From: Acidiphilium multivorum AIU301
GTDB lineage: Bacteria > Pseudomonadota > Alphaproteobacteria > Acetobacterales > Acetobacteraceae
Direction: 5' to 3'
NCBI RefSeq assembly: GCF_000202835.1
Contig: NC_015188.1
Coordinates: 1-40,588 of the forward strand
DNA: 40,588 nucleotides
In this document: in pieces, positions 16,498-37,775 of the stretch
How the letters are laid out: each line of letters starts with the position of its first letter
Position numbering within the stretch: the stretch's first letter is position 1
The notes under the pieces: model-generated
The model's input: only the letters and a program-made list of their open reading frames with translations
Databases searched by the model: none
Told to the model about the DNA's origin: nothing
Program-made: the position numbers and the translations under genes

Positions 16498-17099
16498 GTA
16501 GTGCTGAGGAACATCTCTACGGGCTGATGGAGATCGCCGAGCAGCAGCAGGCGGCTGTGCAGCGGGCGCTGAACGGCCTTGCTGAGGAGCGGGCGGCGCT
16601 AGCGCAGGAGCGGCAGAAACTGGCGGAGGAAGCCTCGAGCCTCGAAGAGCGGGTGCGTGAGGCGGTCAGCGCCGCGGTGACAACGGCGCTGGAGCAGGTG
16701 GGCAAGGAAGGTGTGGCGACGGTCCGAGCGGCAACCAAACCGATGCTGGAGGATCTGGCCGGGCTGGCAGGGGGCATGGCGGTTGCCGAGGAGGCGTTGC
16801 GCCGGATCGTGGCCTGGGCGAGCTGGCGGCTGCTGGGGTGGATCGTGGCCCTGACCGTCGGGTTGATGCTGTTCGGCTGGCTGAGCAGCACGGCCGTTGT
16901 CTGGTGGGATCGCACCACGGTCAGTCAGCTACGGGGCGAAATCGCCATGTTGCAGGCCAATCACGCCGCCTGGGTGAAGGCGGGAATGCTCGACAAGATC
17001 ACCCGATGCGGGGCAAACAGCCGCCCCTGCGTCGCCATCAACCAAAGCGCCGGGGCATACGGGAACAGCGGCGAGTATCGCGTCCTCAAGGGATATTAG
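16494..17099 (+). CDS. Coiled-coil membrane protein coupled to traA
   Basis: This 201-residue protein is translationally coupled to traA (GTGA). Residues 1-70 are a heptad-rich helical region (EEHLYGLMEIAEQQQAAVQR...), residues about 115-140 form a hydrophobic hairpin with ALTVGLMLFGWLSSTAVVWW, and the C-terminus has two cysteines (TRCGANSRPC). The layout recalls MobB-type proteins of mobilizable plasmids, which anchor the relaxase at the membrane and help engage a secretion channel. No specific family is recognised beyond that. The predicted job is to link TraA to the inner membrane. Confidence 0.65.
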   Translation: MSSAEEHLYGLMEIAEQQQAAVQRALNGLAEERAALAQERQKLAEEASSLEERVREAVSAAVTTALEQVGKEGVATVRAATKPMLEDLAGLAGGMAVAEEALRRIVAWASWRLLGWIVALTVGLMLFGWLSSTAVVWWDRTTVSQLRGEIAMLQANHAAWVKAGMLDKITRCGANSRPCVAINQSAGAYGNSGEYRVLKGY

Positions 17100-17272: not shown

Positions 17273-18154
17273 ATGACAGAACTATCTGAACCGGGCTCGA
17301 CGATTCGAGAGTTCCGGCAGCCGGTGCATTTCTCGCTGTCGGCAGACCGTGGCTGGGGGCAGCGGTTTCAGCTAATTGCAACAGATATGAAAGATGGCGT
17401 CCGACTCTGGCGGTTGATTTGGACGCTCGGCCTGTCGGATATCAAGCTCCGTTATCGTGGATCGGCTCTAGGGCCGTTCTGGCTGACGATTTCCATGGGC
17501 GTTCAGATTGGGGCGATGGCGTTTCTCTATGCCGATCTGTTTCATACTGATATTCACACCTATCTGCCGTATCTGTCGATCTCGATTGTCCTCTGGGGTT
17601 ATCTCAATTCCCTCATTTCGGATGGGTGTGTCTGCTTTTCGAGCGCGGATACTCTTATTAAGGGCACTCGCATGCCTTTTACCGTTCATGCGGCGCGCAG
17701 TGTCGTTCGTAATACAATCGTGCTCGGGCATAACCTCGTCGTAGTTGTGGTCGTTTTCGCGATTATGGGTGTTGATCAGAGTCTATATTCCCTGCTGGCG
17801 ATACCGGCCTTCTTGCTCTGGCTCATTGATGCGTTCGCGATCTCTCTACTTTTTGGAGCGTTTTGTGCCCGGTTCAGAGACGTGCCGCAGATCATCATGG
17901 CGTTGATGCAGATTGCGTTCTTCGTGACACCAATCATGTGGTACGCCAAGATTCTTGAAACTCATCCGAGAGCCGTTCTTTTGGTCAAGCTCAATCCGTT
18001 TTTCTATATTTTGGAAATTCTACGCGCGCCGTTACTTGGTTCACCAATGAGCGTCGACATGGTGCTGAAAGCACTAATCATCTCCGCTGGGATCATTATC
18101 ATCAGTATCATTGGCTTTGCCCGGACGCGTGGGCGCATTGCGTACTGGGTTTGA
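17273..18154 (+). CDS. wzm: Polysaccharide ABC exporter permease (Wzm/KpsM type)
   Basis: Inner-membrane half of an ABC-2 type exporter that moves undecaprenyl-linked O-antigen or capsule-type glycan across the inner membrane. The 293-residue protein has a polar N-terminus, the family motif DIKLRYRGSALGPFWLTISM (about 59-78), and about six hydrophobic segments, with FVTPIMWYAKI and LVKLNPFFYILEILRAPLLG near the end, both characteristic of Wzm/TagG. RBS AGGTGGG precedes ATG 17273. It ends 4 bp before the ATPase gene start. Base composition is clearly less GC-rich than the rfb genes downstream, suggesting separate ancestry. Confidence 0.92.
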   Translation: MTELSEPGSTIREFRQPVHFSLSADRGWGQRFQLIATDMKDGVRLWRLIWTLGLSDIKLRYRGSALGPFWLTISMGVQIGAMAFLYADLFHTDIHTYLPYLSISIVLWGYLNSLISDGCVCFSSADTLIKGTRMPFTVHAARSVVRNTIVLGHNLVVVVVVFAIMGVDQSLYSLLAIPAFLLWLIDAFAISLLFGAFCARFRDVPQIIMALMQIAFFVTPIMWYAKILETHPRAVLLVKLNPFFYILEILRAPLLGSPMSVDMVLKALIISAGIIIISIIGFARTRGRIAYWV

Positions 18155-18158
18155 CAGC

Positions 18159-18986
18159 ATGGCACATCTTACTGCCTTCAATATTTCAGTCGATTTCCCA
18201 CTTTATCATAGTGATAGTCGGTCGCTGAAAAAGACGATCATGGGCAGGGCGGCGAGCCGCTTCGGACAGGATCAAAAGCATCGTCCGGTTGTTCAGGCCC
18301 TGCGGAATATCTCGTTTTCGCTCCGCTCGGGTGATCGGCTTGGATTGATTGGTTCGAACGGTTCGGGAAAGACAACGCTTCTGCGGGCGCTCTCGGGGAT
18401 CTACCAGCCGACGGTAGGTTCACTTTCGATGGAAGGTCGGCTGACCTCCTTGCTCGATCCCGGACAGGGGATGAACACGGATCTCACTGGCCGGGAAAAT
18501 ATCCAGCTCCGGGGCCAATTCCTTGGCTTACCTCGTGCTGAGATTGATCGGCTTGAGGCCGACGTCGAGGATTTCTCCGAACTTGCACAGTTCCTCGATT
18601 TGCCAGTGAGGAGCTATTCGTCGGGCATGGTTGTGCGACTTGCTTTTGCAATGGCTACAGCTTTTCCACCTGAGCTACTTTTAATGGATGAATGGATTCT
18701 GGCCGGTGATGCTGCCTTTATGGAAAAAGCCAAGAATAGAATAGAAGGTATGGTACGGCACGCAGATATTCTTATACTAGCAAGTCATTCTCCTGTTATT
18801 TTAGCAGAATGGTGTAATCGTCTGGTTTTGTTAGATAATGGCCAGATAAAAGCGGATGGAGAACCCATGGATATTCTTGAAGAATATCTCCCATCTACCG
18901 CAATTGAAGAAGTAAGGCTTACGGTTTCTCAAAAGCGAATGAGAAAGCAAAGGGTTGTTGAGGAAGAATCGAAGGATCTCCCGTGA
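18159..18986 (+). CDS. wzt: Polysaccharide ABC exporter ATPase (Wzt/KpsT type)
   Basis: Powers the Wzm permease. The 275-residue protein carries Walker A GSNGSGKTT (about 65-73), Q-loop region, signature YSSGMVVRLAFA (about 153), Walker B LLLMDEW (about 173) and the H-loop ASHS. After the ATPase core only about 45 residues remain, so the C-terminal carbohydrate-binding domain found in long Wzt proteins is absent and chain-length control by that route is not expected. ATG 18159 is chosen as the family start. The last ~300 bp are conspicuously AT-rich, then composition jumps to very GC-rich at rfbB, whose ATG-side overlap (GTGA) still keeps the genes coupled. Confidence 0.92.
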   Translation: MAHLTAFNISVDFPLYHSDSRSLKKTIMGRAASRFGQDQKHRPVVQALRNISFSLRSGDRLGLIGSNGSGKTTLLRALSGIYQPTVGSLSMEGRLTSLLDPGQGMNTDLTGRENIQLRGQFLGLPRAEIDRLEADVEDFSELAQFLDLPVRSYSSGMVVRLAFAMATAFPPELLLMDEWILAGDAAFMEKAKNRIEGMVRHADILILASHSPVILAEWCNRLVLLDNGQIKADGEPMDILEEYLPSTAIEEVRLTVSQKRMRKQRVVEEESKDLP

Positions 18987-20041
18987 CGAAATTTCTGATC
19001 ACCGGGGGCTGCGGCTTCATTGGTTCTGCCGTTGTCCGGCGGCTGCTGGCGAGCGCGGCGCATGAGGTCGTCACTGTCGACAAGATGACCTATGCCGCCT
19101 CGGAGGACGCGCTGGGCGCTGCGCTGGGGCATCCGCGCCATCGTCTGATCCGCGCCGACATCGCCGATGCCGCGGCGATGCGCGCCGTCTTCGAGGCCCA
19201 CCGGCCCGACATCGTCATGCATCTCGCCGCCGAATCCCATGTCGACCGCTCGATCGACGGGCCGCGCGATTTCATCGACACCAACATCACCGGCACCTTC
19301 GTCCTGCTCGAGGCCGCCCGCGCCTGGTTCGCCACCCTGGACGAGCCCGCCCGCCGCCGCTTCCGCTTCCACCACATCTCCACCGACGAGGTGTTCGGCG
19401 CGCTCGAACCCGGCGATCCCCCCTTCACCGAAACCACCCCCTACGACCCGCGCAGCCCCTATGCCGCCAGCAAGGCCGCGTCGGACCATCTCGTCCGCGC
19501 CTGGCAGCACACCTACGGCCTGCCCACCATCGTCTCCAACACCACCAACAATTACGGCCCCTGGCAGTTCCCCGAGAAGCTCATCCCGCTGGTGCTGATC
19601 AACGCGCTCGAGGGGCGGCCCCTGCCCGTCTATGGCGACGGCTCCAACCTGCGCGACTGGCTGTTCGTCGAGGATCACGCCGAGGCGCTCGTCACCATCG
19701 CCCTCACCGGCACGCCGGGCGAGACCTACGCCATCGGCGCCCGCCAGCCCCGCTCCAATCTCGACGTCGTCCGCGCCATCTGCCGCCTGCTCGATGACCG
19801 CCGTCCCGATCCCGCCGGCCCGCGCGAGCGGCTGATCACCTTCGTCGCCGACCGCCCCGGCCACGATTTCCGCTACGAGATCGACCCCGCCCGCAGCGAG
19901 GCCGCCCTCGGCTGGCGCGCCGCCCACGATTTCGAGGCCGGCCTCGCCCGCACCGTCGACTGGTATCTCGCCAACGAGACCTGGTGGCGCGCCATCCGCG
20001 CCCGCCGCTATGCCGGCCAGCGGCTCGGTACCGCCGCATGA
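18983..20041 (+). CDS. rfbB: dTDP-glucose 4,6-dehydratase
   Basis: Second step of dTDP-L-rhamnose synthesis: NAD-dependent conversion of dTDP-glucose to the 4-keto-6-deoxy sugar. The 352-residue SDR protein has [11 protein letters not shown] near the start, [19 protein letters not shown], the catalytic region [13 protein letters not shown], and the YxxxK pair in [14 protein letters not shown], followed by [16 protein letters not shown]. All active-site elements are present. It starts with GTG at 18983 overlapping the wzt stop and ends overlapping rfbA by ATGA. Very high GC, matching rfbA, rfbC and rfbD. Confidence 0.96.
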
Positions 20042-20919
20042 TCCGCAAGGGAATCATCCTCGCCGGCGGCTCCGGCACCCGCCTGCACCCCTCCACCCTC
20101 GCCGCCTCGAAGCAGCTCCTCCCCGTCTACGACAAGCCGATGGTCTACTATCCGCTGTCGACCCTGCTGCTCGCCGGCATCCGCGACCTGCTGCTGATCT
20201 CCACCCCGCAGGACCTGCCCCAGTTCCGCCGCCTGCTCGGCGACGGCGGCCAATACGGCATCCATATCGACTATGCCGCCCAGCCCTCGCCCGACGGTCT
20301 CGCCCAGGCCTTCCTGATCGGCGAGGACTGGCTCGCCGGCGAGGCCTGCGCCCTCGCCCTCGGCGACAACCTCATCCACGCCGATCATCTCTCGCTCGCG
20401 CTGCGCCAGGCCGCCGGCCGGGAGGCCGGCGCCACCGTCTTCGCCTACCAGGTGCGCGATCCCGAGCGCTACGGCGTCGTCACCTTCGACGATGCCGGCC
20501 GCCCCATCGACATCGTCGAGAAACCCACCGCCCCCGCCTCCAGCTGGGCGGTCACCGGCCTCTATTTCTACGATCGCCGGGTCAGCGAATTCGCCCACCG
20601 CATCCGCCCCTCCGCACGCGGCGAGCTCGAGATCACCGATCTCAACCGCCTCTATCTCGACGACGGCTCCCTCACCGTCGAGCGCCTCGGCCGCGGCACC
20701 GCCTGGCTCGACGCCGGAACCCCCGACTCCCTGCTCCAGGCCGCCACCTTCGTGCAGACCATCCAGGCTCGCCAGGGACAGCTCGTCGGCTGCCCCGAGG
20801 AAGTCGCCTTCCGCATGGGCTTCATCGACGCCGAAACCCTCCGCCGCCACGCCACACGCCTCGGCAAGACCGATCTCGGCCGCCTCCTGCACGAACTCGC
20901 CGACGGTGACACTCCATGA
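20038..20919 (+). CDS. rfbA: Glucose-1-phosphate thymidylyltransferase
   Basis: First step of the dTDP-rhamnose pathway: joins dTTP and glucose-1-phosphate. The 293-residue protein starts [20 protein letters not shown] with the nucleotide-binding GGSGTRL motif, followed by [24 protein letters not shown] with the metal-binding Asp, and [22 protein letters not shown] 20038 is the family start and overlaps the rfbB stop by ATGA; the open frame further upstream is ignored. Length is normal. Confidence 0.96.
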
Positions 20920-21470
20920 TCGAAACACTCGTACTGCCCGACGTGAAACTCATAACCCCGCCGCGCTTCGCCGATTCGCGCGGCTGGTTCAGCGAAACCT
21001 GGAACCAGGCGAAGCTCGCCGCCCTCGGCTTCACCGAAACCTTCGTGCAGGACAACCACTCCTGCTCCACCCGGCCCGGCACCATCCGCGGCCTGCACTG
21101 CCAGATCGCCCCCTTCGCCCAGGGCAAGCTCGTCCGCTGCATCCGCGGCGCGATCTGGGACGTCGCCGTCGATATCCGCCACGGCTCGCCCGGCTTCGGC
21201 CGCTTCGCCGCCGCCGAACTCTCCGCCGCCAACGGCGCCCAGCTCTGGATTCCGCCCGGCTTCCTGCACGGCTTCTGCACGCTCGAACCCGATACCGAGG
21301 TCGTCTACAAGGTCACCGCCCCTTACGACAAAGCCTCCGAGCGCGGCGTCATCTGGAACGATCCCGATCTCGCCCTGCCCTGGCCCGTTCCCGGCGATGG
21401 CGCCCTGCTCTCGGACAAGGACAATCTCCTGCCCCGCCTCGCCGAGGCCGAACCCTGGTTCACGCTCTGA
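20916..21470 (+). CDS. rfbC: dTDP-4-dehydrorhamnose 3,5-epimerase
   Basis: Third enzyme of the pathway, a cupin-fold epimerase. The 184-residue protein shows [26 protein letters not shown], the catalytic RGLHCQ motif, [18 protein letters not shown] and [14 protein letters not shown] with its conserved His, ending [14 protein letters not shown]. Complete. Overlaps rfbA by ATGA and is followed by rfbD after 1 bp. Confidence 0.96.
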
Positions 21471-21471
21471 C

Positions 21472-22377
21472 ATGCCGGCGCGCCCGATCCTGATCACCGG
21501 GGCGAGCGGCCAGCTCGGCCACGCCCTCGCCGCCCGCGCGCCCGCCGCCGGCCTTCCCGCCCGCGCCGTCGGCCGTCCCGGCTTCGACTTCGACGCCCCG
21601 GAGACGATCGCCGCCACCCTCGCCGCCACCGATCCCGCCCTCGTCGTCAACGCCGCCGCCTGGACCGCCGTCGACGCCGCCGAGGCCAACGCCGACGCCG
21701 CATACCGCGCCAATCGCGACGGCCCCGCAACCCTCGCCACCCTTTGCCGCGCCCGCGGAAACCCCCTCATCCACGTCTCGACCGACTATGTGTTCGACGG
21801 CACCAAGGGCGCGCCCTACACCGAAGCCGACCCGATCGCCCCGCTCGGCGTCTATGGCGAAAGCAAGGCCGCCGGCGAGGAAGCCGTGCTCGCCTCGGGC
21901 GCGGATGCCATCATCCTGCGCACCGCCTGGGTGTTCTCCGCCACCGGCAAGAATTTCGCCCGCACCATGATCGCCGCCGCGCACCGCCTGCCGACGCTGC
22001 GCGTGGTTGCCGACCAGCGCGGCGCCCCCACCGCCGCCGAGGACCTCGCCGAGGCCATCCTCGCCATCGCCGCTCGCATCCTCGCCGAAGGCTGGCAGCC
22101 CGGCTTCGCCGGCATCTTCCACGCCACCAGCGCCGGCGACACCTCATGGCACGGCTTCGCCACCGAAATCCTCGCCCTCGCCGCTCGCCACGGCACGCCC
22201 CTCCCCGACATCGTCCCCATCGCCACCGCGGACTGGCCCACCCCAGCCCGCCGCCCCGCCGACTCCCGCCTCGATACCACGAAACTCAAGGACAGCTTCG
22301 GCCTCGCGCTGCCCCACTGGCGGGACGCCACCGCCCGCATCGTCCCTGCAATCCTGGCGCAGGACGAAACATCGTGA
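21472..22377 (+). CDS. rfbD: dTDP-4-dehydrorhamnose reductase
   Basis: Last step, NAD(P)H reduction to dTDP-L-rhamnose. The 301-residue SDR enzyme has TGASGQLGHAL at the N-terminus, VNAAAWTAVDAAE, HVSTDYVFDG, and the catalytic YGESKAAGEEAV, with a normal C-terminus containing TPARRPADSRLDT. The ATG at 21472 comes 1 bp after the rfbC stop. Its final codons overlap a GTG that opens the truncated GT2 gene. With this the rfbBACD operon is complete, so the plasmid can supply the rhamnose donor if the host provides dTTP and glucose-1-phosphate. Confidence 0.95.
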   Translation: MPARPILITGASGQLGHALAARAPAAGLPARAVGRPGFDFDAPETIAATLAATDPALVVNAAAWTAVDAAEANADAAYRANRDGPATLATLCRARGNPLIHVSTDYVFDGTKGAPYTEADPIAPLGVYGESKAAGEEAVLASGADAIILRTAWVFSATGKNFARTMIAAAHRLPTLRVVADQRGAPTAAEDLAEAILAIAARILAEGWQPGFAGIFHATSAGDTSWHGFATEILALAARHGTPLPDIVPIATADWPTPARRPADSRLDTTKLKDSFGLALPHWRDATARIVPAILAQDETS

Positions 22378-22523
22378 CCACCATCCTCCTCTCCACCTTC
22401 AACGGAACTCGCTTCCTCCCCGAACAGCTTGCAAGCTTCGCAGCGCAGACCGATCAGGACTGGCGCCTCCTCTGGCGCAATGACGGCTCGTCCGACTCCA
22501 CCCACGAAATCACTTCCAGGCTC
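22374..22523 (+). pseudogene. N-terminal fragment of a GT2 glycosyltransferase
   Basis: The GTG at 22374 overlaps the rfbD stop. About 49 residues match the start of family 2 glycosyltransferases: VTTILLSTFNGTRFLPEQLA, then TDQDWRLLWRNDGSSDSTHE, the nucleotide-binding strand and loop. The frame then runs directly into rfbD-like sequence, so the rest of the transferase is lost. This gene was evidently the fifth of the rhamnose operon and probably added rhamnose or another sugar. Confidence 0.75.
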
Positions 22524-22685
22524 GTCGCTGGCATCTTTCACGCTACCCACACAGGTGACATCACATGGGACGGCTACGCTACCTAAATTCCCGCCAGAGC
22601 TGGGAGGCATGGCATATTCAATCCCGAAACTATTCCGAACGCGATTGGCGCCTTCCCAAGGCCAATATGCATACTGGAAAAATAA
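22524..22685 (+). pseudogene. Second rfbD relic (3' fragment)
   Basis: In the same frame as the GT2 fragment, VAGIFHATHTGDITWDGYAT, a TAA (22584-22586), then IPARAGRHGIFNPETIPNAI follow the C-terminal part of rfbD (compare AGIFHATSAGDTSWHGFATE in the intact gene). It then fades and stops at 22683-22685. It is diverged from the adjacent rfbD, so it derives from another copy rather than a simple tandem duplication. It is out of action: no start, one in-frame stop, truncated end. Confidence 0.7.
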
Positions 22686-22712
22686 AGTTAAATTTCCATG
22701 AAGGATAGAATA

Positions 22713-22824
22713 ATGGATAATTATTATGAAAAATATAATGTGTTAAATATGATAAAAGATGAAAGTAATGATTTTATTTTTAAATCAGCTCCGCTCAGCG
22801 GGGTATTAAGTGCTTGGTATGGTC
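22713..22824 (+). pseudogene. Giant methyltransferase-glycosyltransferase gene, 5' segment
   Basis: ATG 22713 follows an AAGGA ribosome binding site by 7 nt and opens MDNYYEKYNVLNMIKDESND. After 37 codons the frame is cut by IS1595 copy 1 at the duplicated target GTATGGTC (22817-22824). Removing the IS and one target copy joins SAWYG to HVPFAYWIVSALRPRRFVEL in the next segment with no frame loss. An alternative ATG lies 15 bp upstream. Confidence 0.75.
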
Positions 22825-23904
22825 CTTGCCTATCCGGTTGTTACCCACACCCACTAAATGTAGGGTGTGTCCATTCCCCGGAATAAAGCTCGTCAAAGGT
22901 TGGTGCGGCTGCCCTACCCGCGATTCCGAGCAGCGAGCGGAACGCGTTGAAGGGATAGAGGCGCCGGTTGAACCGAAACGTGAATTCATTGAGGTAGGCT
23001 TGTAGATGTTTGGCGCTGACCCCGTGATGGATGCCGTTGATCCAGGTCTTCAGGTTGGTAAAGACCAAGTGGACGATCGGCAGGAATTCTTCTGCCACCT
23101 CCGGGTCGCCGCATTCGGCGATTGCATGGTGGTCGAACCCGCGCCTTCCGAGACCGGCATAGCCGCTCCAGTCGTCGGTAACGATCAGCGATCCGGGAGC
23201 AACGGCGTTTTCGACGAATCCGCAGAGCGAATTGGCGCTACGGTCGGGGACAACAGCGAGACGAACGCGTCCCGCGTAGCGACCGTCTTTCCGATTGTCG
23301 AGCTTGGTTCCCGGTTTCCGGTGGCGCACCTCCACGGCACAGGCGACGAGAACCTTGTGATGGACACCCCGTCCATCGCCTCGGGTTCGTCCTCCAACCC
23401 ACGTTTCATCCACTTCGACGTGTTCTTGCGGCGTGTCGCCAATCTTGTCGCGCTCGGGGCGCACCATCCCGGCGCGCAGCTTATGAAGGATGCCGAAGGC
23501 GGTCTCGTAGCGCGACAGGCCGAGTTGCCGCTGAAATTGGACGGCCGACATTCCGGGCGTCTGGCTGGCGATCAAGTAAGCCGCCCAGAACCAAGTCGAC
23601 AGCGGCGTGTGACTGCGTTCCATAACGGTCCCAGCCATCAGGCTTACGTCTTTGCGACAGGCCCGGCAGCGCAGAACGCCCGGGCGCGCCTCGAAACGGA
23701 ACGGCTCGCCAACGACGCCGCACCTTGGGCAGGCGAACCCTCCATTCCAGCGGGCGCTTTCGAGATAGGCGGCACAGGCCGCGTCGTTCGGGAAAATACG
23801 CTGGAATTCCGGCAGAGACTGCGGGAACGGCAGGTCTTCACGGGCCAGGACATCCATGCCCAACACTAGATCTAGTAGGTATGGGAGTCAACCGGATAGG
23901 CAAG
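22825..23904 (-). mobile_element. IS1595-family element, copy 1
   Basis: 1,080 bp, ends CTTGCCTATCCGGTTG inverted at both termini (16 bp perfect, imperfect beyond), 8-bp target duplication GTATGGTC at 22817-22824 and 23905-23912. It splits the giant glycosyltransferase gene. By eye it is identical to copies 2 and 3. Confidence 0.95.
22841..23866 (-). CDS. IS1595-family transposase (copy 1)
   Basis: A 341-residue (338 from the internal ATG) ISXO2-type transposase. An N-terminal zinc ribbon (CPRCG ... CRAC, about 48-75) is followed by the catalytic core: VEVDETWVGG (first acid), IVTDDWSGYAG (second), HHAIAECGDPEV, and the late NGIHHGVSAKHLQAYLNEF motif that supplies the third residue in this family. 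The frame opens at GTG 23866 beside the palindrome ACTAGATCTAGT; the ATG three codons in is the likelier start. Intact, so it could drive further transposition. Confidence 0.93.
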   Translation of the reverse strand: MLGMDVLAREDLPFPQSLPEFQRIFPNDAACAAYLESARWNGGFACPRCGVVGEPFRFEARPGVLRCRACRKDVSLMAGTVMERSHTPLSTWFWAAYLIASQTPGMSAVQFQRQLGLSRYETAFGILHKLRAGMVRPERDKIGDTPQEHVEVDETWVGGRTRGDGRGVHHKVLVACAVEVRHRKPGTKLDNRKDGRYAGRVRLAVVPDRSANSLCGFVENAVAPGSLIVTDDWSGYAGLGRRGFDHHAIAECGDPEVAEEFLPIVHLVFTNLKTWINGIHHGVSAKHLQAYLNEFTFRFNRRLYPFNAFRSLLGIAGRAAAPTFDELYSGEWTHPTFSGCG

Positions 23905-26581
23905 GTATGGTCATGTTCCATTTGCTTATTGGATTGTATCAGCACTAAGGCCTCGTCGCTTTGTGGAGTTGGGAACACACAATGGTGTGTCCTATGCTGC
24001 ATTCTGCGACGCAGTATTACGTGCAGATCTTGATACGCAATGCTTTGCAATAGACACATGGCAGGGGGACGCTCATGCTGGTTATTATGGAGAAGACGTC
24101 TATAACGATCTTCGGACCTTTCATGACCCCCGATATGCGGCTTTCTCAGAACTGATAAGGTCGACATTTGATCAGGCGTTAGATTATTTTCAAGATGGTT
24201 CTATTGATCTTCTTCACATAGATGGTTGTCACTCTTATGAGGCTGTTTGTCATGATTTTAATAATTGGCGCGCAAAACTTTCTACGAGAGCAGTTGTATT
24301 ATTTCATGACACTAATGTGCGTGAGCGGAATTTTGGTGTTTGGAAATTATGGTCAGAATTAAAGATGAAATATCCAAATTTCGAATTTATGCATGAACAT
24401 GGACTTGGTGTTCTTGCCTTCGGCAGTGAAGTACCTGAGGTAGTGCTTAAACTCTGCAATCTATCTAGCCCCAGCGATATCGCCGTAATCCGCAATCGGT
24501 TCGCGTTCAGTGGACGGTCATGTATCCTTGAGGCAATGCATGTACAGGCTCAACGGGATATCTCCGCGGCTGAATTGCGCGTGACTAGGACGGAATCAGA
24601 GCGCCGACATCTCGAAGAGCGGTTTGCTGCGGCTGAATTGCGCGTGACTAGGACGGAAGCAGAGCGTCGACATCTCGAAGAGCGGCTTGCTGCGGCTGAA
24701 TTGCGCGTGACTAGGACGGAATCAGAGCGTCGGCATCTCGAAGAGCGGCTTGCTGCGTTTGAATCACACATGACTAGGATGGAAACAGAGCGCAGAGATC
24801 TCGCAGAAAAGCTAGGTAGTGTTCTTTCCTCCGAGTCTTGGAGGATGACGGCACCACTCCGGTTCTTAGTGCGGCTCATTCGCCGGCTTACTGGACGTAA
24901 CCTTCGGCGAGGGAGGATCATACTCCGCGCGCTTAAGCCGGCGAATATCGAGCATCGCCGAGAAGTGATTCAGGTGCTGCGTCGCCGTGTCGTCTTAGCC
25001 AGCCGTTTTGTCCCGGGGCTAAACAATGCTGTCATTCACGCTTCGCGTATAACGCTCCCGAGCATTTCTGATGACTCTAATCTAAAATCTTTGAAGTATA
25101 TTCCGCCGCATCATGCTGCGGTCGTATCCTATCCAATATGGTCGCTTCGCTTTGACACGCCGTCGGCGACTGACCTATTGCACCTTGAGGAGACTGAAAT
25201 CAAAATGCCAGAGATCCTCGTCATAGCGAGGTTCTCTAGCGAAACTTTTCATCTCATCCAGCAAACTGCCAATGCTCTCAAGGCCACAGTGGGAGTGCGA
25301 TGGCGTTCCGTTTTCATCACTAAGAACCCCGACGATACGACCTTCGCTGTCACTTGTATGCAAGCCTTCCGGGGTGACGTGCGTTTTCTAACGCGATCGT
25401 TTCCCGAGGAACTCAATGGTAAGATTATCGTTCTTCTGGAAGCGGGAGCAATTCCTCGTAGCCATGGCCTACGCCTCTTAGTCGAAGCTATGGTGCATAA
25501 TCCTGATTTGGCTCTCACCTACTCCGACGAGGACCGATTATCCTCCAAGGGCTTGCCGGAATTCCCGTGGTTCAAGCCAAAATACTCTCCCTTACTCGCG
25601 GCACAAGGAATGCTATTCGGCCGGATGTTTGCCATCAGACCATGTGGGCAGTTAGCATCTGATAGTCTTTTTGATCCAATCCAGTCAGTGCTGCAACTGG
25701 CGCTCAAAGCTACACATGGGTTGGCGAGTGAACGTATTAGACATATCGCTCACGTTCTGTTCCATGATATCCTACCATCGGCACCCTTTCAGCCGGTATC
25801 GCTTCCATCTCTCGAAATTCTTCCATTCGTAAGCATCTTCATCCCTACGCGCGATCATTGGCATCTACTTCGCCAATGTCTCGACAGTCTACGGCGCACA
25901 GACTGGCCTATCGATAGAATTGAAATTATCGTCATTGATAATGGGTCAACCGAAACGGAGACCCTTGAAGGCATGGCTATCGAAGAAGCAAGTGGTCGGA
26001 TACGTATTATCCGAGATAGTCGGAAATTCAACTACGCCGCCCTTAACAATGTTGCCGCTAGGGCAGCGCGTGGTGACGTCTTTGTCCTGCTTAACAACGA
26101 CACCGAAATTATCGATCCGACTTGGCTCCGTAAGCTCTGTGCCTACGCTATTCAGCCGGATGTTGGCGCAGTCGGCGCCAAACTTCTTTATGAAGATCGT
26201 ACCATCCAACACGGTGGAGTAATTCTCGGTATCCAAGGCACAGCCGGACATGCGCATCTCCTCCTCAGGGAATCGGAAGGTGGCTACCAGCAGCTCGCCA
26301 ATATCACACGTGAGGTCGCAGCTGTTACAGGAGCTTGTATTGCCGTCTCGCGTACGGCATTTGAAGAGGTTGGTGGCTTACGCGAAGAATTCGAGGTTGC
26401 GTTCAACGATGTTGTATTTTGCCTAGATCTTTTGGCCGCTGGTCGGCGTAATATATATGTCCATGACTGTGTGTTGATCCATCACGAGAGCAAGACCCGT
26501 GGTTTCGACACTACGCCGCAGAAGATTGCTGTCGCTCGTTCTGAAGCGATCCGCGCCTGGCTACATCACCCTAGGTTGCTA
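23905..26581 (+). pseudogene. Giant gene, middle: methyltransferase, coiled coil, GT2
   Basis: Directly after the target duplication the frame gives a Rossmann methyltransferase-like domain (FVELGTHNGVSYAAF motif I, IDLLHIDGCHSYEAV, VVLFHDTNVRE). A tandem-repeat coiled coil follows (24566-24817), then a linker, and a GT2 domain with VSIFIPTRDHWHLLRQCLDS, VIDNGSTE, the DxD-like LLNNDTEIIDPTW, VTGACIAVSRTAFEEVGG and FNDVVFCLDL. It ends at LHHPRLL, where the IS5-type element interrupts. An internal ATG (23963) leaves an 884-residue open frame ending in 12 IS-encoded residues, so a truncated protein with GT2 might still be made. Domain order resembles large rhamnan-type glycosyltransferases. Confidence 0.85.
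24566..24817 (+). repeat. Four 63-bp tandem repeats encoding a coiled coil
   Basis: Units start at 24566, 24629, 24692 and 24755, each exactly 63 bp (21 residues, three heptads). The core is AAELRVTRTESERRHLEERL; the fourth unit is diverged (AFESHMTRMETERRDLAEKL). The first three are almost identical at the DNA level, so copy number could change by slippage, altering the spacer between the methyltransferase and GT2 domains. Confidence 0.92.
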
Positions 26582-28151
26582 GTCGTCTGTGAATTAAGCG
26601 ATGTGGTAGTTCGGTAGGCGAAGGTCTGGAGAGGGTCTTGCGGCCGAGAGCCATGTGAAGATGGCGCAAAGAAGCCTGATCAGCCATCTGCGGAGCAGCC
26701 GGAGGTTGTGGCCGGCGCCGGCAAGGATGGCGTTGATGGCATCACCGTCGAAGCCGAGCAGGAAGTTTCGCCCCAGATGGCCATCGGTCTTCATGTGGCC
26801 GATGACGGGTTCGATGGCTGTGCGTCGGCGCAACTCGCGGCGGATGGTGGGGGTGATGCCGCGTTTCTGGCGGGAGATGAAGATCCTTCTGCCCTCGGCT
26901 TCGACGCCGTGGCCGCGATAGCCGCGGTCGACATAGGCGCGGGCGACGGCAACGCCGGTGATCCGCTCGACCTGCTCGATCTGGCCGGCCAGGGTGTGGC
27001 CGTCATAGGGATTTCCCGGCTGGCTCTGCATGCCGAGAACGAACTGACCGCCGGGTGCGGCGGCGTTGGTGGTGGCGATGGAGACCTTCACGCCGAATTC
27101 GAATCGCGTCCTGGCCTTGCCCTTGCCGATGCACTCCACCTCAGGCGCGTGCAGGGAATAGAGCTTGTCGGCACCGCGGTCGGAGCGCTTCTGGCGAAGC
27201 AGGCGATTGATCAGGCCCAGCGTTTCGGCGAAAGTGGCCTTCGCTTCAGCGTTGCCTGCGATCTTGCGGGTGATGTCACGAGCCAGCCGGCCCAGCCAGG
27301 TTCGCAGCTTGCGCACGCGAGCCTCGGCCTCGCGGCGTTTGCCACCATGGTGCAGGCGCGCCGCCTCCTGCCTGGCGTAGCGCGCGACCCGGCGATACGA
27401 CTGGCGTAGCGTGATACCGTGCTTGCGTGCCATCCGCGCCAGTGTCTCGATGCCGCTGTGCAGGAGCTTGCTGTCGGTCGGATGCGTCACGGCCTTTGGC
27501 TGGACCGTGGTATCGATGGTGACCCGCTTGTAGTGCTTCTCCGCCACGGCCCCACCCCGCTCGGCGGCCGCCAGCGTCTCGGCGAGCAGGGCCTCCATCC
27601 GCTCGGGCCCGATCCGTTTGCGCCAGCGCGTCATCGAGGATCGGTCAAGCGGCAGCGTGTGCTGGAAATGCGTCTCGCCGCAGAATGCCTGGACATACGG
27701 ACTGTCGAGATAGCGCGCGCAGATCGCTTCGTCGGACAGCCCATCCATGTGCTTGAGAAGATGCAGCGCCACCATCAGGCGGGTCGGCAGTGCCGGACGT
27801 CCCGCCGCCTCGGCGTAGAGTGAGCCGAAGCGTTCCTCGAAAACCCGCCAGTCGATCAGCCGGGCCAGCCGCACCAGGGGATGCCGCTGGTCGATGATGT
27901 TCTCCAGCCGCGAGCGGAACAGTTCGAGATCATCCTGCGAGGCATTCAGCTTCGGCGGCATTCTTTCCTCCACGCCAAACGCATGATGTTCGACATCAAA
28001 GGGAGAGAATCACGATCGCGACCACCGCGCAACGCTCCAACGGTTTTGCAAGGTTTTTCCCCTCAGCTCGCCCAGACCCTGCAAATCCCAATATTGCCAG
28101 CCACCAAAACATCGCCCCCAGATCAGCAAAGTTCGATTTTTCACGGGTGAC
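26582..28151 (-). mobile_element. IS5-type insertion sequence
   Basis: About 1,570 bp with one transposase. The target TTGCTA is duplicated at 26576-26581 and 28152-28157. Ends are weak inverted repeats (GTCGTCTGTGAA against GTCACCCGTGAA). Removing it and one target copy fuses HHPRLL to RDDPYYSPNLSLES in frame. The 6-bp duplication is longer than the 3-4 bp usual for most IS5 subgroups, so the family label is provisional. Confidence 0.85.
26594..27973 (-). CDS. IS5-type DDE transposase
   Basis: The 459-residue protein starts near MPPKLNASQDDLELFRSRLE and contains NIIDQRHPLVRLARLIDW, LPTRLMVALHLLKHMDGLSD and LPLDRSSMTRWRKRIGPE, typical of the long transposases annotated as IS5-like in proteobacteria. 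Probable DDE residues are Asp in VTIDTTVQPKAV, Asp in AYVDRGYRGHG and Glu in RTAIEPVIGHMKTDGHLG. Complete. It lies antisense to the gene it interrupts and may block residual transcription through it. Confidence 0.88.
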   Translation of the reverse strand: MEERMPPKLNASQDDLELFRSRLENIIDQRHPLVRLARLIDWRVFEERFGSLYAEAAGRPALPTRLMVALHLLKHMDGLSDEAICARYLDSPYVQAFCGETHFQHTLPLDRSSMTRWRKRIGPERMEALLAETLAAAERGGAVAEKHYKRVTIDTTVQPKAVTHPTDSKLLHSGIETLARMARKHGITLRQSYRRVARYARQEAARLHHGGKRREAEARVRKLRTWLGRLARDITRKIAGNAEAKATFAETLGLINRLLRQKRSDRGADKLYSLHAPEVECIGKGKARTRFEFGVKVSIATTNAAAPGGQFVLGMQSQPGNPYDGHTLAGQIEQVERITGVAVARAYVDRGYRGHGVEAEGRRIFISRQKRGITPTIRRELRRRTAIEPVIGHMKTDGHLGRNFLLGFDGDAINAILAGAGHNLRLLRRWLIRLLCAIFTWLSAARPSPDLRLPNYHIA

Positions 28152-29351
28152 TTGCTACGCGACGATCCATATTATTCGCCCAATCTCTCGCTCGAGTCTC
28201 CATATAAGCTTGCTTTCGCGCCACGGCGCCGCGAGCTTTGGCGCAAGACCGTCGGTACTACGCTGAAAATTTTAATGCTTTCTTCCACCTACGCACGTGG
28301 TCATGGCGTGGCAGTGGTTATCGATTTGATGGTAACTACGCTGCGCAAGCGCGGCCATGTAGTATTCCTCGCTGGGACAAAGAGCGACCGCGATTTCTCT
28401 TATGGAGGGACCGAGGTCATCGATGTACAAGACCCCCGATCGGCTGCAACGATGGCTACAGATTTGCAGATTGATGTGATTATCGCGCATACACCACCAT
28501 TTTTTGGTGTTGCACGCTGGACCGGTGCATACCCGCCAGTGATTGCTTATGATTACGGTGAGCCGCCTCCAAATTTCTTCCCCGACGAGGAGGCGCGGCG
28601 TGAGAGCCTGGCTGACAAGAACGCTAGCCTGCGGATGTGTACGAAGGTTTTCGCGATATCCCAGGCGATCGCAGATGAGTCATTGATCCCTCCAGACAAG
28701 GTAATCCCACTCGGCAATAGCCATCTTGGCGTATGGACGTCTGAACTCTTGGAGCGGCGTGAAGCAATTCGTCGTAAGCACGGATGGACTTCACACTACG
28801 TTATTCTCAACGTTTGCCGTTTTCATGTAGGCGAGCGCAAATACAAGGGGGTCGATCAGTACGCCGATATGCTTGCTGCCTTGAAGTCGGTCGATCCAGA
28901 TTTCGCGGCGCGTTGTATCTTTGTTCTCTGTGGAAAAGCGCACGATGAGGATATAGCCGCGGTTCGTGCCCAAGGGATTACAGCTATCGCAAACATTTCT
29001 GATGAAGAAATGTTGGATCTCTACGTGGCAGCAGACCTCTATGTGAACTTTTCGCGTTGGGAAGGATACAATCTGGGTATTGGCCAAGCTCTTGCGATGG
29101 GACTGAAGGTAATTGCTTCAGATATACCCGCTCATCGCGCCTTTGGCGTAAGGGTTGTGGGCAATGCAATCGATGCTGCCTTTGCACTACTCGATCTAAC
29201 TCGCGAATCGACGGAGCGTGTTCCCCTGCTGTGGAGTTGGGACGAACCGCTCCACCTATTCGCTGAAGAAATTGAGAGCTTAGCTTTTACCAGCACCAAC
29301 CCCCAAATAGGTTGGAGCCATGACAAGTCTGAGGATCAAGGAGTTGCGTAA
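28152..29351 (+). pseudogene. Giant gene, 3' segment: GT4 glycosyltransferase domain
   Basis: It begins in the target duplication with RDDPYYSPNLSLESPYKLAF, which normally closes a GT2 domain, so the N-terminus belongs to the previous segment. The rest is a GT-B fold (about 350 residues) with KILMLSSTYARGHGVAVVID, the acceptor-domain VFAISQAIADESLIPPDKV, VILNVCRFHVGERKYKGVDQ and the donor-site FSRWEGYNLGIGQALAMG, where the Glu pair position of GT4 enzymes reads WEGYNLG. It has no ribosome binding site of its own; TTG 28152 is in frame but is only the duplicated target. Ends at 29351. Confidence 0.85.
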
Positions 29352-29362
29352 CTTGTAAAACC

Positions 29363-29456
29363 TGCGACACATAGGCAACCGCCCGGTCTGCCAGGCTTTT
29401 TCTTGTCGCATATCATTGTCGCATGTTATATTAATTGTGCGACATAACATGCGACA
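29363..29456. repeat. TGTCGCA array ahead of serine recombinase, res-site candidate
   Basis: The heptamer TGTCGCA or its complement occurs five times: 29363 (reverse), 29404 and 29417 (forward), 29438 and 29450 (reverse). The inner part contains a perfect 13-bp dyad, TGTCGCATGTTAT (29417-29429) and ATAACATGCGACA (29444-29456), ending 9 bp before the recombinase ATG. This is the expected layout of a recombinase-binding crossover site that also serves as its operator. Confidence 0.65.
29381..29401 (+). terminator. Probable intrinsic terminator
   Basis: GCCCGG, a TCTG loop and CCAGGC (one mismatch in the stem) followed by TTTTTCTTG, 30 bp after the stop of the glycosyltransferase gene. Position and U-rich tail fit termination of the polysaccharide operon. 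Confidence 0.5.
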
Positions 29457-29465
29457 GGAAAGTTC

Positions 29466-30044
29466 ATGAACGAGTCTGCAACCGGCCCCTTGATCGGCTA
29501 CGCCCGCGTCTCCACTCAGGGCCAGGATCTCGCCCAGCAGCGCGCGACGCTGCGGGAGGCTGGCTGCACCCGCATTTTCGAGGAAAAGGTCAGCGGGGCA
29601 AAGCGTGACCGGCCAGAATTAGCACGCCTGCTCGATCACCTGCGTGCCGGTGACGTGGTGACGGTCACGCGCCTGGACCGGCTTGCCCGCTCCACCCGCG
29701 ATCTGCTGGATATTGCCGAGCGGATCAAAGAGGCTGGCGCCGGCTTGCGCTCACTGGCCGAGCCGTGGGCCGATACCACGACGCCGGCCGGCCGCATGGT
29801 GCTCACCGTGTTCGCCGGCATGGCCGATTTCGAGCGGTCCCTTATTGTCGAACGTACCAGCACTGGCAGGATAGCAGCCAAGGCGCGCGGTGTGCGCTTT
29901 GGGCCGCGGCCTGCTCTCGCGGCCGAGCAGATCGCTCATGCCCGTCAGCTCATCGAGGTGGACGGCAAACCCGTGGCCGAGGTTGCCCGCTTGCTGGGCG
30001 TCCACCGCGCCACCCTCTACCGGACCTTGGAGAAACACCAATAG
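29466..30044 (+). CDS. Orphan serine recombinase (resolvase/invertase)
   Basis: The 192-residue protein has Ser16 in LIGYARVSTQGQDLAQQ, TVTRLDRLARSTRDLLDIAE, FAGMADFERSLIVERTSTGR and a C-terminal helix-turn-helix EVARLLGVHRATLYRTLEKH. It is complete, with RBS AGGAAAG just upstream of ATG 29466. It is not accompanied by a transposase or transposon ends, so it may be the plasmid's multimer-resolution enzyme or a leftover from a lost Tn3 element. It differs clearly from the two transposon resolvases. Expression is probably controlled by its binding to the adjacent TGTCGCA array. Confidence 0.92.
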   Translation: MNESATGPLIGYARVSTQGQDLAQQRATLREAGCTRIFEEKVSGAKRDRPELARLLDHLRAGDVVTVTRLDRLARSTRDLLDIAERIKEAGAGLRSLAEPWADTTTPAGRMVLTVFAGMADFERSLIVERTSTGRIAAKARGVRFGPRPALAAEQIAHARQLIEVDGKPVAEVARLLGVHRATLYRTLEKHQ

Positions 30045-30112
30045 CGCGGTCCGGGAGGGGCGTTCGATTTCCGAAAATCTTCAATTACGGAACGTCGCGG
30101 ATTGAATGTCGC

Positions 30113-30136
30113 GCATGATAAAGGACGTTATCATGC
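30113..30136. repeat. 9-bp perfect hairpin downstream of recombinase
   Basis: GCATGATAA (30113-30121) and TTATCATGC (30128-30136) around AGGACG. There is no T-run, so it is not a standard terminator; it might be an operator or RNA stem. Confidence 0.4.
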
Positions 30137-30395
30137 TCAAGAAGCGTGGTTTAAGGGATCATCGGACGCATCTGCTCGATACCGGGTCCGTCCATGCGAC
30201 CAGTGAGTTGAATTGAAAAACGAAGGTGTCTGCAGCATCTGGATTGATGCTCAGGCGGTGTTCTGGTGGTGCATCGAGCAGCGGGCATCCGAGACTGCAA
30301 CCCTGTAAGATAGAGAATGCTTCGTGTGCCTTGGCGCTGTGCAACTCGCTTGGGAAATATGCTACATGCCGAGCGAGAAAGGAAAGCTGCTCGTA

Positions 30396-30662
30396 ATGCT
30401 GGACCTGCCGATTCCAAACGACGCGACAAAGCTCTGGTTACGATCCAGCTGGTCGCGGTTTAATCGTACTGATGGCTGCGAGATCACTCTCAATTGGACC
30501 AAAGTTGGCTTTCGCTGGCGGGCGATGGTGCCGAATTTCCATTACAATAAAAGAAGTGGATGGATCATATTAAAGGATGAAAACGGCATTGTAGACTTCA
30601 AAAAATACTCACACGCAATGAGACTTGTAGAGTTATATATTTCAGAAAATGAGAAAAAATAA
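30396..30662 (+). CDS. AT-rich hypothetical protein
   Basis: From ATG 30396, with a GAAAGGAAA purine tract about 12 nt ahead, 88 residues begin MLDLPIPNDATKLWLRSSWS and include aromatic-rich strands (WRAMVPNFHYNK, SGWIILKDENG) and a charged C-terminus. An earlier in-frame ATG at 30366 is possible. No domain is recognised. The 3' half is far more AT-rich than the plasmid average, like the other orphan at 34152, suggesting foreign origin. Confidence 0.4.
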   Translation: MLDLPIPNDATKLWLRSSWSRFNRTDGCEITLNWTKVGFRWRAMVPNFHYNKRSGWIILKDENGIVDFKKYSHAMRLVELYISENEKK

Positions 30663-30827
30663 ATTTATATTACGAAATATATAAATTAGGTGGAATTATA
30701 GAGATCAAAAGAATCGTGTGATCAGGTCAATTTTTCTTACGCAAACGACGCCTGGCTAAAGAAACCGGTTTTCTGGCTATATTTGGTCTATTTTCGATGA
30801 TATTTGCGAGACCATCGATTATCAAAC

Positions 30828-31907
30828 CTTGCCTATCCGGTTGACTCCCATACCTACTAGATCTAGTGTTGGGCATGGATGTCCTGGCCCGTGAAGACCT
30901 GCCGTTCCCGCAGTCTCTGCCGGAATTCCAGCGTATTTTCCCGAACGACGCGGCCTGTGCCGCCTATCTCGAAAGCGCCCGCTGGAATGGAGGGTTCGCC
31001 TGCCCAAGGTGCGGCGTCGTTGGCGAGCCGTTCCGTTTCGAGGCGCGCCCGGGCGTTCTGCGCTGCCGGGCCTGTCGCAAAGACGTAAGCCTGATGGCTG
31101 GGACCGTTATGGAACGCAGTCACACGCCGCTGTCGACTTGGTTCTGGGCGGCTTACTTGATCGCCAGCCAGACGCCCGGAATGTCGGCCGTCCAATTTCA
31201 GCGGCAACTCGGCCTGTCGCGCTACGAGACCGCCTTCGGCATCCTTCATAAGCTGCGCGCCGGGATGGTGCGCCCCGAGCGCGACAAGATTGGCGACACG
31301 CCGCAAGAACACGTCGAAGTGGATGAAACGTGGGTTGGAGGACGAACCCGAGGCGATGGACGGGGTGTCCATCACAAGGTTCTCGTCGCCTGTGCCGTGG
31401 AGGTGCGCCACCGGAAACCGGGAACCAAGCTCGACAATCGGAAAGACGGTCGCTACGCGGGACGCGTTCGTCTCGCTGTTGTCCCCGACCGTAGCGCCAA
31501 TTCGCTCTGCGGATTCGTCGAAAACGCCGTTGCTCCCGGATCGCTGATCGTTACCGACGACTGGAGCGGCTATGCCGGTCTCGGAAGGCGCGGGTTCGAC
31601 CACCATGCAATCGCCGAATGCGGCGACCCGGAGGTGGCAGAAGAATTCCTGCCGATCGTCCACTTGGTCTTTACCAACCTGAAGACCTGGATCAACGGCA
31701 TCCATCACGGGGTCAGCGCCAAACATCTACAAGCCTACCTCAATGAATTCACGTTTCGGTTCAACCGGCGCCTCTATCCCTTCAACGCGTTCCGCTCGCT
31801 GCTCGGAATCGCGGGTAGGGCAGCCGCACCAACCTTTGACGAGCTTTATTCCGGGGAATGGACACACCCTACATTTAGTGGGTGTGGGTAACAACCGGAT
31901 AGGCAAG
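30828..31907 (+). mobile_element. IS1595-family element, copy 2
   Basis: Opposite orientation to copies 1 and 3. Same 1,080-bp length and ends; target duplication TATCAAAC at 30820-30827 and 31908-31915. It interrupts a small minus-strand gene. Confidence 0.95.
30866..31891 (+). CDS. IS1595-family transposase (copy 2)
   Basis: Translation identical to copy 1 over all 341 residues, including the zinc ribbon and the DETWVGG and HHGVSAKH motifs. No substitutions are visible, so the copies arose very recently or are kept identical by gene conversion. The likely initiator is ATG 30875. Confidence 0.93.
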   Translation: MLGMDVLAREDLPFPQSLPEFQRIFPNDAACAAYLESARWNGGFACPRCGVVGEPFRFEARPGVLRCRACRKDVSLMAGTVMERSHTPLSTWFWAAYLIASQTPGMSAVQFQRQLGLSRYETAFGILHKLRAGMVRPERDKIGDTPQEHVEVDETWVGGRTRGDGRGVHHKVLVACAVEVRHRKPGTKLDNRKDGRYAGRVRLAVVPDRSANSLCGFVENAVAPGSLIVTDDWSGYAGLGRRGFDHHAIAECGDPEVAEEFLPIVHLVFTNLKTWINGIHHGVSAKHLQAYLNEFTFRFNRRLYPFNAFRSLLGIAGRAAAPTFDELYSGEWTHPTFSGCG

Positions 31908-32057
31908 TATCAAACTATCTTTTGATTGATTTATGCTTACCAGAAGCGCCGCTGCTTGCCTCAAATATTCAACAGCAGCAAGATATATACGCTTTTCATC
32001 GTGGCCGAACTCGGACATCGACTTGCCTTCTGTTTGTGAATCTGCCGGATTAATCAT

Positions 32058-35153: not shown

Positions 35154-36292
35154 ATGGCCGCGTTCAGCTCGTTGCTCGATATACTGGCAGAGGTCCCCGA
35201 TCCGCGGCGCGCGGAAGGCAAGCTCTACAAGCTGCCGCATGTCCTGCTGTTCTCGATCCTGGCGATCATCAGCGGCTGCAATTCGTATCGCGGCATCGTC
35301 ACCTTCATCGACGTCCATCGCCGCCGGCTGAACCGCAGCTTCGGCCTGAAATGGCGCCGGGCGCCCTCGCACACGGCGATCCGCTACATCCTCCAGGGGC
35401 TCGACCCGGGCGCGGTGGAGGCCGCGTTCCGACGCCACGCGGCACTGCTGCAGGCGGCCAGGACCAAGCCCGGCACGGCCAGCATTGCGCTCGACGGCAA
35501 GACCCTGCGCGGCAGTTTCGACAGGTTCCATGACCGCACCGCGGCTCATGTGCTCAGCGCCTTCACCACCGACACCAAGCTGGTGCTCGCTCATGTCGAG
35601 ATCGGCGAGAAATCCAGCGAGATCCCCGCCGCCCAGGCGCTGCTCGCCGAACTGGGCATCGCCAAGGACACAATCGTCACCCTGGATGCCCTGCACTGCC
35701 AAAAAAAGCCTTCAACGTCGCCCAGGCGGGCAACATCAACCTCATCGTCCAGGTCAAGGACAATCAACCGACGCTGAAGCAGGCGATCCACCATATCGCC
35801 ACATCGAGCGCCCCATACGACGTCTTCCGGACCCGCGACCGCGGCCGCAATCGTGACGAAACCCGCACCGTCTCCGTCTTCGATCCCGCCAGCGCGCTCG
35901 CCGGCACCGAATGGCATCCCCTTGTCGCCGCCATCATTCAGGTCGAGCGCGCAATCGCCACCCGCAATCCCGAAACCGGCCTGCTCAAGCTGACATACGA
36001 CATTGCCTTCTACGTCGCCAACACATCGCTCACCGCCGCCATCGCCGCCAAGGCCATCCGCGCACATTGGGGCATCGAAAATTCCTCCCACTATGTCCGA
36101 GACGTCACCTTCGCCGAGGATCGATCCCGGATCCGAACCAACCCTGGCGTCATCGCCCGATTGCGCAGCTTCGCCTTCAACATCCTCATGAACAGCAAAG
36201 CCACCGCCAGCACCCTCAGCCAAGACCGCTACCGCGCAGCTCTCGCCGGACTCAAACACCTCCTCGCACTCATTACTATCCCAAAGCGTTGA
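35154..36292 (+). pseudogene. ISAs1-family transposase with frameshift at A7 run
   Basis: The first frame (35154-35777) encodes the family N-terminus (SLLDILAEVPDPRRAEGK, FSILAIISGCNSYRGI) and the first catalytic region IALDGKTLRGS, ending after TLDALHCQKK. The remainder is in the -1 frame: AFNVAQAGNINLIVQVKDNQ, a second catalytic part, RAHWGIENSSHYVRDVTFAE with the Glu, and a stop at 36290-36292. Reading across the run would restore a normal protein of about 380 residues. The break falls at CAA AAA AAG, a canonical -1 slippery heptamer (A AAA AAG), so this is either a one-base deletion or programmed frameshifting; the latter has not, to my knowledge, been typical of ISAs1. Confidence 0.8.
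35701..35708 (+). other. A AAA AAG slippery heptamer in transposase
   Basis: Seven As then G, phased so that codons read CAA AAA AAG in frame 0. Slipping back one base gives the frame of the transposase C-terminus. I did not identify a clear upstream Shine-Dalgarno-like stimulator or downstream stem. Confidence 0.5.
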
Positions 36293-37760: not shown

Positions 37761-37775
37761 GTTTGGAGATTGAAC

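Follow-up and report, generated by a model that had tools for sequence, protein, structure and literature searches.

The window analysed here is a 40,588-nucleotide (nt) stretch of Acidiphilium multivorum AIU301 (contig NC_015188.1; C8:1-40588 of a 4.21-Mb genome in nine contigs), and between positions 22713 and 29351 it contains three pieces which, judging from their sequence, were formerly one gene and are now separated by two unrelated insertion sequences (ISs). The intact gene would have encoded a 1,324-residue polysaccharide synthase combining a methyltransferase, a coiled coil, a degenerate GT-A domain and glycosyltransferase (GT) domains of the GT2 and GT4 types. In the reading that we prefer, the coil would serve as a ruler and the methyltransferase as a cap for an exported, rhamnose-containing chain whose synthesis was abolished by the insertions; taken as a whole, we give this reading about an even chance.

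One reading frame and two insertions

When both elements are excised together with one copy of each flanking repeat, 112 + 2,669 + 1,194 = 3,975 nt remain in a single open frame whose only stop is the last codon. The 8-base repeat GTATGGTC is found on the + strand of the window only at the two sites that bound the 1,080-base element, and TTGCTA, the 6-base repeat of the second element, also occurs at two unrelated places on that strand. On our reading of the sequence, the first insertion split a histidine codon, of which C ends piece 1 and AT begins piece 2. AAGGA stands immediately 5' of the start ATG at 22713, and the N-terminal motif of piece 1 resembles that of the relatives described below (coordinates in Table 1).

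Table 1. Features of the locus, in window coordinates
Feature	Position	Strand	Details
Wzm-type ATP-binding cassette (ABC) permease	17273..18154	+	PF01061
Wzt-type ATP-binding protein without Wzt_C	18111..18986	+	PF00005; no PF14524
RmlB	18983..20041	+	
RmlA	20038..20919	+	PF00483
RmlC	20916..21470	+	PF00908
RmlD open reading frame (ORF)	21397..22377	+	PF04321; translation probably begins some codons downstream
Truncated 5' GT2 gene fragment, 70 residues	22374..22586	+	PF00535 residues 3-52
Piece 1 of broken gene	22713..22824	+	37 codons and 1 base; one copy of the 8-base repeat lies within it
Target duplication GTATGGTC, left copy	22817..22824		
IS1595-family element (ISAcr1 type), 1,080 bases	22825..23904	-	transposase ORF 22841-23866 on - strand; PF12762, NF033547
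Target duplication GTATGGTC, right copy	23905..23912		
Piece 2 of broken gene	23913..26581	+	methyltransferase, coil, degenerate GT-A, GT2
Methyltransf_24 domain	23963..24313	+	PF13578, expect value (E) 1.4e-24; piece-2 residues 17-133
Predicted long helices, candidate coiled coil	24470..24823	+	piece-2 residues 186-242, 248-303; AlphaFold2
63-nt (21-residue) tandem repeat	24566..24807	+	3.8 copies, 89% matches
Degenerate GT-A-like domain	25202..25774	+	piece-2 residues ~430-620, approximate limits; no Pfam hit
GT2 domain	25832..26371	+	PF00535 E 5e-20; piece-2 residues 640-819; motifs NNDTEI, FNDVVFCL
Target duplication TTGCTA, left copy	26576..26581		
IS5-family element, 1,570 bases	26582..28151	-	transposase ORF 26594-27973 on - strand; NF033578 E 5.9e-151
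Target duplication TTGCTA, right copy	28152..28157		
Piece 3 of broken gene	28158..29351	+	GT4-type glycosyltransferase and stop codon; PF13692 E 2.8e-10, PF13439 E 5.6e-7
Serine recombinase at border of variable slot	29466..30044	+	PF00239; conserved in sister plasmid

Unbroken homologues of the rejoined gene exist. The whole domain order (Methyltransf_24, GT2, Glyco_trans_1_4) lies in one ORF in plasmid proteins of Aureimonas AU20 (L013, 1,288 residues) and Rhizobium CB3171 (L153, 1,297 residues), the former aligning to residues 1-870 of piece 2 and then 2-372 of piece 3, the latter to residues 1-878 and then 1-366; the three segments are thus not always separate genes. At join 1, SAWYG/HVPFAYW is matched by the homologue sequences SAWYGHVPFAHW, SAWTGHVPFAHW and SAWHGHVPFAHW, and joining restores the family motif SAW-x-GHVPFAHW, the conserved H of the split codon included. 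At join 2, five aligned homologues pass from the end of piece 2 (alignment column 1246) to the start of piece 3 (column 1247) with no residues between them; besides the two plasmid proteins, those that cross this join without a gap are L016, L017, L050 and L051. Among 43 relatives, 56 columns are at least 95% conserved; piece 2 covers 54 of these and has the conserved residue at every one, and the remaining two (W and H) precede its first whole codon, the W being that of SAW in piece 1. The original prediction of a single gene interrupted by two unrelated ISs is therefore borne out by the repeats, the frame and the unbroken homologues: its arithmetic is exact, neither join breaks the frame, and the homologues continue across both junctions, which it had described as plausible family sequence. 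That the pieces were never one gene, but three neighbours or an assembly error joining in frame by chance, might be suspected from the AT-rich piece 1 (28.6% G+C against 50-52% in the other two pieces). This explanation is in practice refuted by the continuity of the homologues, and the matching target duplications, the other genome copies of both elements and the duplications flanking the IS5 copies examined leave it scarcely credible.

The first element, called ISAcr1 in the matching database records, fits the IS1595 family by its DDE_Tnp_IS1595 transposase, its inverted ends (identical over 16 bases, CTTGCCTATCCGGTTG) and its 8-base duplication. The genome has at least 23 copies of it at 99% identity or more over the left end, the window's three included (40 of 65 candidates scored). 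The IS5-type element, with imperfect inverted ends, has at least four full-length, 100% identical copies, the window's included, among 15 matches (40 of 181 candidates scored); since the duplications at these four copies measure 6 bases in three cases (TTGCTA, TATCTC, GAGGTA) and 7 in one (TATGCTA), a 6-base repeat appears normal for this element. Both insertions had been supposed to be recent, which the intact frame and the identical IS copies make plausible; IS identity is however a weak clock, because 100%-identical copies of both elements are also present in plasmids of A. cryptum JF-5. The two further IS1595 copies of the window lie at 30827-31915 and 36673-37761, and all three are identical over 1,080 bases.

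No unbroken copy of the gene was found in 13 genomes of the genus, the window's own included. Genome G304 has a match to the methyltransferase part (C5:11184-11759, 48% over residues 3-195, with one TGA inside) and, about 10 kb away, a separate match to the GT2 part in a long frame (C5:21156-21875, 45%); the other clear matches in the 13 genomes are GT2 parts.

Domain organisation of the rejoined protein

The order methyltransferase, repeat coil, GT2, GT4 proposed originally was right, but it missed the degenerate GT-A-like domain, in which LLEAGA stands where a DXD-type site is expected, YSDED is retained, and which is probably inactive. By position, Methyltransf_24 occupies the place of a terminator, N-terminal to the helices, and GT2, GT4 and the extra GT-A-like domain, all predicted glycosyltransferases, lie C-terminal to them. 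The AlphaFold2 model of piece 2, made from 13 sequences, gives an alpha/beta domain at about residues 430-620 and a confident GT-A region following it. In Foldseek searches the top PDB matches were chains of the two-domain chondroitin polymerase K4CP, then others and heparosan synthase 2. The K4CP alignments cover 533-637 columns, a span that fits two GT-A domains; their low template-modelling (TM) scores (0.16-0.30) and high root-mean-square deviations (17-24 Å) are as expected if the predicted domain arrangement is unmatched. Searched by sequence against the PDB, piece 2 drew GT2 relatives, chondroitin synthase among them, and piece 3 one match; PHROGs returned phage methyltransferase and glycosyltransferase families (E 1e-4 to 5e-12).

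With the GT2 and GT4 domains each whole by Pfam, and with ORFs 23963-26617 and 28152-29351 open, it may be asked whether the cell tolerates both insertions, the proteins of pieces 2 and 3 being made separately and still cooperating, since the second insertion falls between domains. We find this improbable. A product begun at GTG 23963, where the methyltransferase match opens, would lack the conserved residues that precede it; no clear ribosome-binding site is seen at the new starts on reading the sequence; and in each of the eight proteins found with both the GT2 part and a matching GT4, a single ORF encodes the two (GT4 identity is at least 43% in six of them and about 40% in the others).

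Relatives and their linkers

At E 1e-60 or better, piece 2 has matches in 86 of 299 family genomes, GT2-only matches counted, and piece 3, at 1e-40, in five of the 299, the window's own included. Relatives were sampled in 48 regions (40 with long open frames from the list of piece-2 matches, and eight other loci), of which 45 hold an ORF matching the methyltransferase, 43 of these being distinct. The 43 relatives, selected by that very match, all carry Methyltransf_24, and also Glycos_transf_2 (40), Glyco_trans_1_4 (36) and RgpF (11). L016, L017, L050 and L051 keep the GT2-GT4 part, and their N-terminus gives not a methyltransferase but a weak, below-cut-off match to Glyco_tranf_2_4. Because GT tails are of several kinds and four proteins have this other N-terminus, exchange of the distal domain seems, as far as sequence tells, to have been independent of that of the polymerase part. 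Close to the homologue of pieces 2-3 in Burkholderia puraquae there is another gene, of the order Methyltransf_24-GT2-Glyco_trans_1_4 (L050, 102-3365), so that both N-terminal types occur within one cluster. As to context, rml genes adjoin the homologues in Azospirillum and NGR234, an RmlB-like gene follows the homologue L153, and in Pantoea a Methyltransf_24 gene that bears the annotation rhamnan synthesis F immediately follows a gene for a Wzt with Wzt_C.

Linkers, defined from the GLG to the SW motif, were compared in 28 non-redundant sequences including that of the window (46 sequences, less two duplicates and 16 lacking the motifs). They are 82-236 residues long, and their lengths show a period of 7 (R=0.39; p=0.0135, uncorrected, the best of nine periods), which is no more than suggestive of heptad phasing. 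Tandem Repeats Finder arrays scoring at least 100 occur in the linkers of 6 of 44 non-redundant sequences; five are in multiples of 21 nt (window 63; L093 42; L105 42; L109 63 and 21; L110 21-84, these last two from the same genus) and one is off this series (L014, 72), and many of the weaker arrays have other periods. L109 and L110 carry long 21/63-nt arrays, with 13-14 copies of 21 nt, between the methyltransferase and GT domains.

Comparison with known systems

We recognised no paper on the window gene in our search of the open-licence literature. Gluconacetobacter diazotrophicus is a member of the Acetobacteraceae. Homologues of ORF6 of Klebsiella pneumoniae O7 are reported in that species (PMC11231755). 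In the sections of this source that treat such systems, K. pneumoniae O12 WbbB and O7 ORF6 have polymerising GTs and terminator on one chain across a coil, the coil is an established ruler in E. coli O9 (the same as K. pneumoniae O3) and O12, and in enteric O3, O5 and O12 the sugar-binding domain of Wzt reads the cap (PMC11231755). As described there, O7 ORF6 resembles the window protein in being a single chain with an N-terminal methyltransferase, a central coil (a candidate one in the window protein) and C-terminal GT modules, and its context too is alike, with rhamnose in the O7 polymer and a cluster that contains rmlD, rmlC, wzm and wzt; it differs by a 223-residue kinase and a carbohydrate-binding-module-like domain between methyltransferase and coil and, going by the published description, by a tail of two GT2 modules instead of GT-A, GT2 and GT4 (PMC11231755). 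O12 WbbB likewise unites polymerisation and termination in one polypeptide with an N-terminal terminator and a coil ruler, but that terminator is described as a 3-deoxy-D-manno-oct-2-ulosonic acid (Kdo) transferase and not a methyltransferase (PMC11231755). In WbdA/WbdD of E. coli O9a a coil holds the methyltransferase off and sets chain length, as is proposed for the window protein; in the account given, they are however two proteins with a kinase, and the protein with the coil does not carry the polymerase GTs (PMC5082667). The WbdD type itself, methyltransferase and kinase without GT modules, is not matched by the window protein, which has GT modules and no room for a kinase.

In WsaE of Geobacillus stearothermophilus a methyltransferase is combined with two rhamnosyltransferase domains, and its methyl cap has been proposed as the chain end (PMC2943079). 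The likeness, drawn from the description, lies in the union of methyltransferase and GTs in one protein and in a cluster with rml and wzm/wzt, whereas no coil is described in the relevant parts of the source (PMC2943079). The NGR234 plasmid gene NGR_RS31785 encodes Methyltransf_24 followed by two GT2 stretches, with rfbB-D-A/rml genes directly upstream. At 902 residues, its product differs from the window protein in having no GT4 tail; we take y4gI to be the gene's older name, which had no occurrence in 12 papers. O7 ORF6 and O12 WbbB are thus closer analogues than WbdA/WbdD, and for the window protein it is reasonable to suppose a single-chain polymerase with a coiled-coil ruler, a design already published in these two (PMC11231755).

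Proposed function and its weight

On this basis, it is tempting to propose that the C-terminal glycosyltransferases would extend a chain containing rhamnose supplied by the adjoining RmlBACD, and that the coil would keep the N-terminal methyltransferase at such a distance that only sufficiently long chains become methylated. Methylation would cap the chain end, by analogy with O7/O12 and WsaE, and the product would be exported by the neighbouring Wzm/Wzt. We infer the sugar, the capping, the ruler and the loss of function alike, the rhamnose from the rml neighbours of the window gene and of its homologues. The insertions, which interrupt the gene ahead of the methyltransferase and again between the GT2 and GT4 domains, would most likely have ended the plasmid's production of this polymer, and once one of them had occurred the other may have been neutral. 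Insertional inactivation of a surface-polysaccharide gene is an ordinary event.

Several observations weigh against the ruler-and-cap reading or against a strict match to the characterised systems. The window protein leaves no room for a kinase, as its methyltransferase match in Pfam extends to residue 133 and the helix already begins at 186. Wzt_C, the sugar-binding domain, is absent from the window's Wzt and was not found in the genome, and in the family it occurs in one of the 86 piece-2-matching genomes (GT2-only matches again counted) as against 13 of the 213 others. Wzm of the window's kind is present in 237 of the 299 family genomes, so that its presence is not specific; among the matches listed, and the window aside, a methyltransferase-type match and a Wzm lie within about 10 kb of each other in G179 alone, and in G277 no more than 3 kb separates a GT2-only match from a Wzm. 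The AlphaFold2 model of piece 2 is of middling confidence, with a mean predicted local distance difference test (pLDDT) of 65.8 and a predicted TM score of 0.51, and block pLDDT in the helix region runs from 38 to 76, mostly 57-76. Hydrophobic 3.5-residue periodicity reaches p<0.01 in only 3 of the 28 linkers, with p ~0.13 for the window's. Finally, sequence search found no methyltransferase relative in the PDB.

These points lend themselves to another explanation, in which the same broken gene had no ruler: the methyltransferase would decorate each repeat unit, the coil would only join subunits, and length would result from the balance of synthesis and export. The failure to find Wzt_C in the locus or genome, the weak heptad periodicity, and the position of most relatives away from a Wzm gene (among the matches listed) speak for it, whereas the distal order methyltransferase, coil, GT is common to characterised length-controlling proteins as they are described in PMC11231755, and Pantoea has such a gene paired with a Wzt_C transporter. 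Given the missing Wzt_C, the weak periodicity and the family counts, we put the ruler with cap at about one half and ruler-less decoration, a possible though less probable account, at about one third.

The window gene and its relatives add a family of natural single-chain synthases, mostly from environmental bacteria, to a known design, and the 43 relatives with their varied linker lengths form a set on which the relation of coil length to polymer length could be addressed beyond enteric bacteria. One could go further and imagine that in Acetobacteraceae and their relatives Methyltransf_24 and coil together form a movable cassette for capping and length control, joined to a wide variety of polymerases, that coil length, and polymer length with it, drifts by in-frame tandem duplications of heptad multiples like the window's 63-nt repeat, and that ISs switch the coat slot off; we regard this as speculative and rather doubtful, but if true, the plasmid's Wzm-Wzt-Rml core with its exchangeable glycosyltransferase slot would serve to replace one coat type by another.

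The plasmid locus

The window encodes RepC, a MobA/MobL relaxase and a serine recombinase, and the nearest named plasmid records for positions 19000-32000 come from Acidiphilium and from an Acidithiobacillus ferrooxidans assembly. A sister plasmid, CP084176.1 (L134), matches the window at 12875-13811, 13868-14123, 14185-17050 and 17312-22371 (76-88%) and again at 29343-30023 (83%). Between the equivalents of 22371 and 29343 it has different genes, for RgpF and for a WsaF-type protein that weakly matches a methyltransferase, and the sister plasmid gives no match to piece 2 or to piece 3. Shared flanks around different glycosyltransferases indicate that the broken gene occupies an exchangeable slot, in a plasmid coat locus whose core of export and precursor genes is conserved and whose glycosyltransferases have been exchanged. 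The G+C content is 64% over wzm-rmlD, 44% and 29% at the left end of the slot and 50-52% over the rest of the gene. L134 is filed under Acidithiobacillus ferrooxidans, yet its backbone is shared with the window's Acidiphilium-type plasmid, which might reflect transfer or a mixed culture. Plasmid-borne rhamnose operons have been tied to attachment in roseobacters (Michael 2016, as cited in PMC10090131).

The transporter and precursor genes remain beside the broken gene and have chromosomal counterparts. Window positions 18991-22512 are 94.8% identical to a chromosomal rmlBACD-GT2 locus, in which the GT2 gene is whole (~300 residues, L150 from 7814), and a chromosomal Wzm of the same genome shows 69% identity to the plasmid's. 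Chromosomal rmlBACD copies lie at C6:1416430-1419974 and C6:778001-781398, both ~95% identical to that of the plasmid, and the genome has three matches to Wzy_C. Elsewhere in the window, two Tn3-type transposase genes (PF01526) are found on the - strand at 4487-7453 and 8205-10997, and a partial ISAs1-type transposase at 35154-35777 (model positions 1-151 of 314).

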